From an uncultured Spirochaetaceae bacterium (GTDB lineage Bacteria > Spirochaetota > Spirochaetia > Sphaerochaetales > Sphaerochaetaceae), in assembly GCA_944389025.1 (NCBI GenBank), contig CALXKU010000001.1, positions 62,001-126,000 of the forward strand: a DNA stretch of 64,000 bases, given 5' to 3'. Of the stretch, positions 54,487 through 57,446 are shown one piece after another; within the stretch, counting starts at the first letter, position 1; every line of letters starts with the position of its first letter. The notes below the pieces were generated by a model. It saw only the letters and a list, made by a program, of their open reading frames with translations, was not told the DNA's origin and did no database searches. The position numbers and the translations under genes were made by a program.

Positions 54487-55731
54487 ATGAGGATTACCTT
54501 TCTTTCGATATTCCCTGAATCTTTTTCCAGTTTTCTTGATTATCCTGTAATCAGGAGGGCGATAAAAAATGGCATTGTCAGTTTTGAGATCATCGATATC
54601 AGGGACTATGCCGATGGCTGTTTCCGTGCTGTGGATGACTCCCCGTATGGCGGAGGTGCAGGGCTGCTTCTTAGAGTGGATACTCTGACGAATGCTCTTA
54701 ACTCTGCAAAGACTGACAGGGCAAGAACCATACTCATGGGGCCAAAAGGAAAGAAGTTCTCTCAGGGGATTGCCCACGAGCTTGCAAAAGAGGAGCATAT
54801 TATTCTTGTCGCTGGGCATTATGAAGGTGTCGATGAGAGAGCCAGAGCTTATGTTGATGATGAGCTTTCAATCGGGGATTATGTTCTAACCGGAGGGGAA
54901 AGTGCTGCGATGATAGTCGCTGAGGCTGTTACCCGTCTTCTTGACGGGGCTCTCAGGGGTTCAGCTGCAAAAGAGGAAAGTTTTGAGAACGGAATCCTTG
55001 AGCACCCACAATACACCCATCCCGCATTATTTGATGGAAAAAGAGTTCCCGATGTACTTCTCAGCGGAGACAGAAAGAAAATTGAATGTTTCAATGAGAT
55101 AGAGGCATTGAAAGAGACAATACGTCTCCGACCCGATCTGCTTACTTGCGACAGGGAATTTAATTATTGTTCGCTCCATAAGAGCTATGGCAATGAGGCC
55201 AAGATTATAAGGTGGATGAAGAAAAGGCTGCCAGTGCCTGAAATCCTTTATGATGATGAGAGCTATCTGCTACTTTCAAAAGAGAGGGGAAGGGCCCTGA
55301 AAGACTCCACAAAGAACAGGATTCTTAAAACCTCAGCGATGATACTCAAAGCATTCTGGGCTATGGATATATCTGATTGTCCATGTTCTGAGAACATCGA
55401 GATGACAATCAGGAAATTGAAAAAGAAAAGACTCTCATATTCTGAATGGACGGCACTGAGCGAAATAGAGAAAACAAATTTTAATGAAGACTATGTGTTT
55501 TCCCATGGTAATCTCACGCTCAGCAATATCATCATAAATGGAAACGGACTTGTGATGCTTACTGGAATGCAGAAAGCTGGAGTCGCCGACTGCTACAGGG
55601 ATATTGCCACCCTCCTCCCTTCTCTCGAGGAGGCAGGATTTACGAGGGAAGAGTTCTTCGTTCTTCTTGGTCTAAAGATTGATGAAAATAAAATCCAATT
55701 CTTTCAGCGACTGAATTCCCTGACATATTGA
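54487..55731 (+). CDS. trmD: tRNA (guanine-N1)-methyltransferase TrmD fused to an APH-like pseudokinase domain
   Basis: A 414-residue protein where TrmD alone is about 240. Residues 1-220 are TrmD, which methylates G37 of tRNAs: SPYGGGAGLLL, AGHYEGVDERAR, LSIGDYVLTGGES, LEHPQYTHPALFDGKRVPDV and SGDRKKIE. The usual catalytic Asp of the EDSF segment appears as Glu164. Residues about 222-414 resemble aminoglycoside phosphotransferases: Lys232 and Glu237 in a short N-lobe, LPVPEILYDDESYLLLSKE, and HGNLTLSN (340-347) where the family has HGDxxxxN; the metal-binding Asp position reads TGM. The kinase is therefore probably inactive. No rpsP, rimM or rplS is adjacent. Confidence 0.85.
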   Translation: MRITFLSIFPESFSSFLDYPVIRRAIKNGIVSFEIIDIRDYADGCFRAVDDSPYGGGAGLLLRVDTLTNALNSAKTDRARTILMGPKGKKFSQGIAHELAKEEHIILVAGHYEGVDERARAYVDDELSIGDYVLTGGESAAMIVAEAVTRLLDGALRGSAAKEESFENGILEHPQYTHPALFDGKRVPDVLLSGDRKKIECFNEIEALKETIRLRPDLLTCDREFNYCSLHKSYGNEAKIIRWMKKRLPVPEILYDDESYLLLSKERGRALKDSTKNRILKTSAMILKAFWAMDISDCPCSENIEMTIRKLKKKRLSYSEWTALSEIEKTNFNEDYVFSHGNLTLSNIIINGNGLVMLTGMQKAGVADCYRDIATLLPSLEEAGFTREEFFVLLGLKIDENKIQFFQRLNSLTY

Positions 55732-56580: not shown

Positions 56581-57003
56581 ATGCATGCAGACAACAAGAA
56601 ACACAGGACAGTCCATAAGCCTGTCCCAAACCACAGAAAAGGATTACAGTATAAAAGTCAGGCTGCCCTATAGATGAACGGCACAAGGGTGGAATTCGTG
56701 GATGGGCGCTATACGAGCCAGAAATGCTCGGTGTGCAAAATGATAGACAAGGCTTCGAGGAATGGGAACAGATACACATGCAGGCATTGCGGCAGCAGAA
56801 TGCATGCCGACACGAATGCTGCCATCAACATCTGCGACAACTACATCACCCGGGCCCAGAAGTCCGGGCAGGCTGCAGTCAATCAGCCTGGGGAGCCATC
56901 GGGTCACCCCGTAAGTGGATGGAGTGCCATAGGTAAACCGGAAACGGAGCCTGTGGACAAAACGCTCACGTCCAAGCCTTCAGGCTTGCCTAAAGGTCGT
57001 TGA
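56581..57003 (+). pseudogene. IS200/IS605-family TnpB remnant (C-terminal zinc ribbon)
   Basis: Frame starting at 56581 reads a degenerate segment ending GLQYKSQAAL, then an in-frame TAG at 56671, then NGTRVEFVDGRYTSQKCSVC and, after a spacer, CRHCGSRMHADTNAAINI. The Cys-x2-Cys..Cys-x2-Cys ribbon and the RuvC-terminal HADTNAAINI are diagnostic of TnpB. The N-terminal two thirds, including the first RuvC motifs, is missing; sequence from 56340 to 56580 contains another Cys-rich fragment (CKKCRQKTCQACPN) of unclear origin. It runs into an IS-type right end. Confidence 0.85.
56973..57002 (+). mobile_element. IS605-type right end with hairpin
   Basis: CAAGCC-TTCA-GGCTTG (56973-56988) followed by CCTAAAGGTCGTTGA. 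A subterminal palindrome just before the element boundary is typical of IS200/IS605 right ends, which also form the 3' scaffold of TnpB guide RNAs. The left end is not identifiable. Confidence 0.5.
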
Positions 57004-57446
57004 CGAGAATATATGAGGTAACAGACAGAACTCCTGATTTGATAGCCGCTCTCCTCTCCGTTTGGGAATCATCGGTCAGGGTCACGCATCTTTTTCTTGC
57101 CGAAACTGAAATATTGAATATAAAAAAGTATGTGCCTGAGGCTCTTTCCGCTGTTGCCCATTTGATTGTTGCCGAGGATGATTCCGGTACTCCTGTTGCT
57201 TTCATGGGCGTAGATGATGGCTCTCTTGAGATGCTCTTCATAAGCTCTGATGAACGAGGAAAAGGGTTGGGAAGAAAGCTTATGGAGAAAGCGATAGATG
57301 AATATTCGGTAAATCGTCTTGCAGTCAATGAACAGAATCCTCAGGCTAAGGGCTTTTATGAGCATATGGGCTTCAGGGTATATAAGAGGTCAGAGATGGA
57401 TGAGCAGGGAGGCCCATATCCTCTTCTTTACATGAAGTTGGAGTGA
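57000..57446 (+). CDS. GNAT-family N-acetyltransferase
   Basis: A 148-residue acetyltransferase: LLSVWESSVRVTHLF near the start, the acetyl-CoA loop ISSDERGKGLGRKLME (about 80-95) and NEQNPQAKGFYEHMGFRVYKR at the end, as in YjaB-like GNATs. The only usable start is TTG at 57000 (in-frame TAA three codons upstream), and this codon lies in the right end of the TnpB remnant. Insertion may have removed the native start and promoter. Confidence 0.85.
   Translation: MTRIYEVTDRTPDLIAALLSVWESSVRVTHLFLAETEILNIKKYVPEALSAVAHLIVAEDDSGTPVAFMGVDDGSLEMLFISSDERGKGLGRKLMEKAIDEYSVNRLAVNEQNPQAKGFYEHMGFRVYKRSEMDEQGGPYPLLYMKLE

Follow-up and report, generated by a model that had tools for sequence, protein, structure and literature searches.

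We found that the window, a 64,000-nucleotide stretch of DNA from an uncultured Spirochaetaceae bacterium, encodes an accessory TrmD paralogue, TrmD2, fused in frame to a tail that we classify from its sequence as a catalytically dead pseudokinase derived from the APH(3') aminoglycoside phosphotransferases. In the account that we prefer, and to which we give an even chance, the protein would be an active accessory m1G37-type methyltransferase whose tail, gained by fusion to an APH(3'), has a non-catalytic structural or docking role.

The gene (54487-55731, +) is a single unbroken frame of 414 codons closed by a stop codon at 55729-55731 (+). As the original prediction had stated, the trmD frame runs on past residue 220 without a stop: a TrmD domain (residues 1-220; 54487..55146, +) is followed by an in-frame tail of about 195 residues (residues 221-414; 55147..55728, +). 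The TrmD part exceeds the curated cut-offs of both NCBIfam NF000648 (260.3 bits, E 9.5e-78; cut-off 220) and TIGR00088 (252.8 bits, E 2.4e-75; cut-off 195), and Pfam tRNA_m1G_MT (PF01746) matches residues 1-220 (E 2.6e-46). That the tail resembles an APH was likewise borne out. When the tail was searched alone, residues ~231-410 matched NCBIfam APH_3p (NF033068; E 2.7e-29) with 102.5 bits, below that model's curated cut-off of 205, and the nearest PDB match by phmmer was APH(3')-IIIa (E 3.7e-14); these values lie well outside chance expectation. Because the general Pfam APH model alone gives a weak match (E 0.0004), the kinship is specific to the 3' family. The tail begins at profile position 48 of NF033068, with ~50 N-terminal APH residues missing.

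TrmD, an essential enzyme that serves as a target for antibacterials, is normally encoded by a single gene. A Pfam TrmD search showed that the window genome (G000) holds two. The other lies on contig C6 in the standard ribosomal operon, in the order rpsP-KH-rimM-trmD-rplS; the window copy, which lies outside the trmD operon, is an accessory paralogue. A canonical copy is also present in all genomes with a dead-tail fusion (interrupted by a contig end in G365). Since there is a separate canonical trmD in a normal operon, the dead tail is not borne by the essential TrmD. The original proposal of a pseudokinase attached to the essential methyltransferase thus holds for the kinase-like, catalytically dead tail but not for the enzyme that carries it.

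Comparison with canonical TrmDs revealed that every dead-tail fusion retains D50, R154, the acidic residue at 169 (D/E) and S170-F171; the roles of D50, R154 and D169 in TrmD are described (PMC5372735, PMC9508554). Asp50 (54634..54636, +), which reads tRNA G36 in the TrmDs that have been studied (PMC9508554), is conserved in 63/63 canonical TrmDs and in all TrmD2s, and Arg150 (54934..54936, +) corresponds to the catalytic Arg154 (PMC5372735). At the site of the catalytic Asp169 of E. coli, the window protein has Glu164 (54976..54978, +) in place of the Asp that the original prediction had expected. However, Glu is standard at position 169 in Spirochaetota, occurs there in 57 of the 63 canonical TrmDs sampled and is likewise found in the solved Bartonella TrmD 3ief; because Glu is the norm at this position, Glu164 is not a defect. 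We conclude that the window protein is a predicted TrmD-family methyltransferase with its catalytic residues intact.

The C-terminal part of the TrmD half has changed. R183, H201, W207 and R208, each of which is shared by 88% or more of canonical TrmDs, are all replaced in the 11 dead-tail fusions (R183 by His, H201 by Arg, Lys or Ser, W207 by Phe, and R208 by Asn or Cys). In the window protein, His178 (55018..55020, +) stands in place of Arg183 of the canonical YTRP motif, and His occurs at this site in 17/17 fused TrmD2s. In addition, the last canonical TrmD helix is missing from the dead-tail fusions, and the kinase-derived region takes its place. From these replacements and the loss of the helix, we infer that recognition and docking of tRNA by TrmD2 are altered. 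The NF000648 and TIGR00088 models do not require this C-terminal module, so its loss weakens only a claim of canonical tRNA recognition. The TrmD2-APH of G497 (L087:1432-3015, +) has a cysteine-containing insertion, RRSGCGVGSCTS, directly after the catalytic ESF of TrmD.

Relative to the APH(3') family, of which APH(3')-IIIa is the nearest solved member, the window tail has the C-lobe core, the hinge LPVPEIL, the DISDCP motif, the HG loop and the alpha-C Glu, but lacks beta-1/beta-2, the Gly-rich loop, the beta-3 Lys, the catalytic and metal Asp residues and the LLDELF-type C-terminal end. The motif readings of the original prediction were correct, and both motifs lie at the expected APH sites: the degenerate catalytic loop HGNLTLSN (residues 340-347; 55504..55527, +) stands where APH has HGDxxxxN, and TGM, within LTGM (residues 358-361; 55558..55569, +), where APH has the metal-binding IDLG. 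Across the dead tails, the His-Gly of the loop is invariant and the catalytic Asp is replaced in 11/11, by N, S, A, R or K. Glu237 (55195..55197, +), proposed as the N-lobe Glu, does fall on the alpha-C Glu of APH in the alignment and is present in 11/11 dead-tail fusions. Its proposed partner Lys232 is K or R in 11/11, but the alignment does not put it on the beta-3 Lys of APH, as it lies 5 rather than 16 residues from Glu237. SHG, NGNG and the AG.AD.RD stretch vary little or not at all among the 11 dead tails; the NGNG turn (55537..55548, +), which is no APH motif, is invariant across the clade.

The dead tail is maintained by purifying selection. Its omega was 0.19-0.23 in close pairs (dS 0.2-0.3) and 0.13-0.34 in more distant pairs, for which dS is near saturation; that of the TrmD2 half was 0.08-0.19. 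We also assessed charge and structure. The dead tails have a mean net charge of about -3 per 195 residues, compared with -7 to -22 in almost every stand-alone or plasmid APH(3'). This loss of strong acidity fits a loss of aminoglycoside binding, and the charge, near-neutral and not basic, gives no positive sign of an RNA-binding surface. Any RNA or nucleotide binding, as originally proposed, would have to do without the Gly-loop and the catalytic and metal Asp residues. A full-length model, built from an alignment of the window protein and one relative, had a mean pLDDT of 42. A low-confidence model of the tail reached a pLDDT of 58 with APH(3')-IIIa in its input alignment, an inclusion that favours an APH(3') answer in structure searches: all top Foldseek matches were APH(3') (6.1e-5), and VIA-align placed APH(3') chains first (Z up to 7.0 over 93-110 C-lobe residues).

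Among the 139 genomes searched, TrmD2 forms a single clade inside one spirochaete family and occurs in four forms. Two species carry it joined to an APH(3') whose motifs are intact; in 3 full and 2 partial cases, the attached APH is shortened but retains HGD; in 11 species, including that of the window and all with the same architecture, the APH is dead and has neither the Gly-loop nor the HGD Asp; and a further 13 are unfused. Full-length TrmD2-APH fusions are present in 16 genomes. In the window genus, 5 of 48 genomes have the dead-tail fusion and 4 have unfused TrmD2, plus a fragment in G031; the sister genus g29 has six dead-tail fusions and four unfused TrmD2s. Unfused copies, known from g1, g29, g34 and g189, retain the normal TrmD C-terminus. 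Because this distribution is patchy, TrmD2 is likely dispensable. The APH domains of the g193 fusions keep HGD and DLG/DWG. The G503 fusion has all APH(3') motifs and exceeds both curated cut-offs (TrmD, 270.7 against 220; APH(3'), 216.8 against 205), and on these grounds it is a putative bifunctional methyltransferase-kinase.

We found no fusion outside this family in a phylum sample of 393 genomes and none on viral contigs, phages or plasmids; a defence-system library gave no match, and in one scan of genome contigs the G017 locus was the sole relative found. The long TrmD frame of G081 was rejected as a fusion, as it is merely upstream read-through. A second unusual APH fusion occurs in a different family of the same class, where an intact APH(3') follows a P-loop nucleotide-kinase-like domain with a GASHTGKT motif (L053:1501-2865, -; L055:823-2136, +; L062:838-2151, +). 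Some members of the window genus have chromosomal stand-alone APH(3')s with intact motifs (L008-L011), and an M20-type peptidase adjoins three of these four loci (L008, L010 and L011).

In an IQ-TREE phylogeny of 93 TrmDs, the TrmD2s grouped together (100/100), separately from the TrmD1s of the family (99/88), and among them the 11 dead-tail fusions were also a clade (100/99). In the APH tree, the fused domains stood apart from the reference APHs and the stand-alone ones of spirochaetes (97/94), a separation that is consistent with a single fusion event. In the free tree, the dead-tail fusions were basal and the unfused TrmD2s were nested within the fused kinases, with an uncertain root inside TrmD2; a topology uniting all 17 fused TrmD2s in one clade was not rejected (p-AU 0.29 and 0.11). 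Given the shared His183, the loss of His201 and the normal C-terminus of the unfused copies, we set aside the basal dead-tail topology and favour one fusion, with unfused TrmD2 as its sister. The idea that the stand-alone APHs of G005, G013, G022 and G031 are fission products was not supported, as the APH tree did not place them with the fused domains. In four genomes with unfused TrmD2, the stand-alone APH(3')s belong to another lineage.

Transfer of the fusion between genera is probable. The window fusion is 74.6% identical to that of its congener G017 and 74.2% identical to that of G435, from g29; the G000/G435 pair has a dN of 0.131 for TrmD2 as against 0.331 for TrmD1; and the two group together in the TrmD2 tree (100/94). 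No conserved operon partner of TrmD2 was found across genera, and its neighbours differ between genera. From inspection of the sequences, the g193 fusions adjoin two conserved genes, one of them encoding an ACT-domain-like protein, and those of three g29 species adjoin a GNAT and an apparent nucleosidase; the window GNAT was the one tested against Pfam. This GNAT acetyltransferase (57000-57446, +) lies near the window fusion and has g29 counterparts of 58-63% identity in L162, L163 and L164, where the apparent nucleosidase gene sits between the fusion and the GNAT. The GNATs of the G000 and g29 loci are possibly part of one transferred stretch with the fusion. Closely downstream of the window fusion lies a TnpB/Cas12f-like fragment (56674-57003, +) that consists of the TNB domain alone (Pfam 9.1e-16) and is probably what is left of an IS200/IS605-type element.

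These findings suggest that the ancestor was a bifunctional TrmD-APH(3') methyltransferase-kinase. In the 11-species clade, the Gly-loop and catalytic Asp of the kinase half are gone, while the frame, the C-lobe core and purifying selection have been retained. TrmD2 would still methylate G37-type sites, with changed tRNA recognition. The pseudokinase would most likely have a non-catalytic role as a structural or docking module: standing in for the C-terminal helix that was lost, it would position the substrate or stabilise the dimer. It is possible that it also regulates the methyltransferase. The gene itself, accessory and non-essential, would spread between genera by lateral transfer.

One alternative, somewhat unlikely in our judgement, is that the tail is a structural leftover: a decaying kinase that could not be dispensed with because it caps and solubilises the end of TrmD2 in lieu of the last helix, with no docking or regulatory role. 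Decay would account for a tail that evolves faster than the TrmD half (dN of 0.219 versus 0.116 for G000/G017, and 0.416 versus 0.162 for G004/G028), for catalytic positions that vary freely, and for the survival of unfused TrmD2s with a normal C-terminus. It would also suit the loss of different parts in different lineages: in G498, G504 and G505, which retain HGD, the helical subdomain and the C-terminal end are gone, whereas the 11-species clade lost parts of the N-lobe. Against a mere leftover stand an omega well under 1 and the non-catalytic SHG, NGNG and RD residues that are invariant over 11 species in two genera.

Improbable is a reading in which the tail binds a small molecule (an aminoglycoside, a nucleotide or another metabolite) without phosphorylating it, and so switches TrmD2. 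Descent from a small-molecule kinase and the retained kinase-core residues agree with such a sensor, but the Gly-loop, the metal Asp and the LLDELF-type end are gone and the acidic surface is neutralised. Slightly further from our expectation, and quite improbable, is that the fusion arose as a mobile translation-protection element in which the kinase would inactivate an aminoglycoside-like compound and TrmD2 would take over from a TrmD under attack by a SAM mimic, with the dead-tail forms retaining the replacement role alone. The intact APH(3') domain of G503, above its family cut-off, the patchy distribution and the G000/G435 transfer point in this direction; against it, the loci share no surrounding mobile element or resistance cassette, their neighbours vary by genus, and the searches of plasmids and phages found no fusion. 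Finally, a frameshift or assembly error joining two genes is so improbable that we reject it: we found nothing in its favour, the identical joint recurs with the same architecture in 11 independent genomes, without stops and under purifying selection, and g193 has the fusion with an intact kinase.

The active methyltransferase with a non-catalytic tail that we favour can be set against several known systems. It resembles canonical bacterial TrmD, a tRNA (guanosine37-N1)-methyltransferase of the SPOUT superfamily, in its domain and catalytic residues, but differs in its location outside the trmD operon, its replaced C-terminal recognition residues and its kinase-derived domain in place of the last helix. 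The bifunctional resistance enzyme AAC(6')-Ie/APH(2'')-Ia likewise arose in nature by joining an APH domain to a second enzyme; there both halves act on the drug, whereas in the window protein a dead APH is paired with a tRNA methyltransferase. In the Kae1-Bud32 fusion of archaeal KEOPS (M. jannaschii mj1130), a kinase fold is fused to an enzyme of tRNA position 37 (PMC7718258). The likeness to TrmD2-APH is one of functional analogy, with no kinship: the enzyme families are different, the modification is t6A, and Bud32 is an active ATPase. The window protein has no significant Bud32 match (NCBIfam TIGR03724, 13.6 bits against a cut-off of 125). By this analogy, a captured resistance-type kinase would have passed through a bifunctional enzyme to become a pseudokinase that chooses the tRNAs of TrmD2, an independent bacterial counterpart of Kae1-Bud32; we consider this extended account rather unlikely.

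The literature searched, which was short of many subscription papers, yielded no description of a TrmD-APH(3') fusion; what would be new is the architecture, as both component families are already known. Among living relatives, the kinase half is found intact, shortened, dead or absent, which provides an unusually complete record of an antibiotic-kinase domain becoming a pseudokinase, and the repurposing is directly testable by comparing proteins of the G503, G504 and window types. In this spirochaete family, a resistance-type enzyme was seemingly built into a translation enzyme and then made a non-catalytic part of it.
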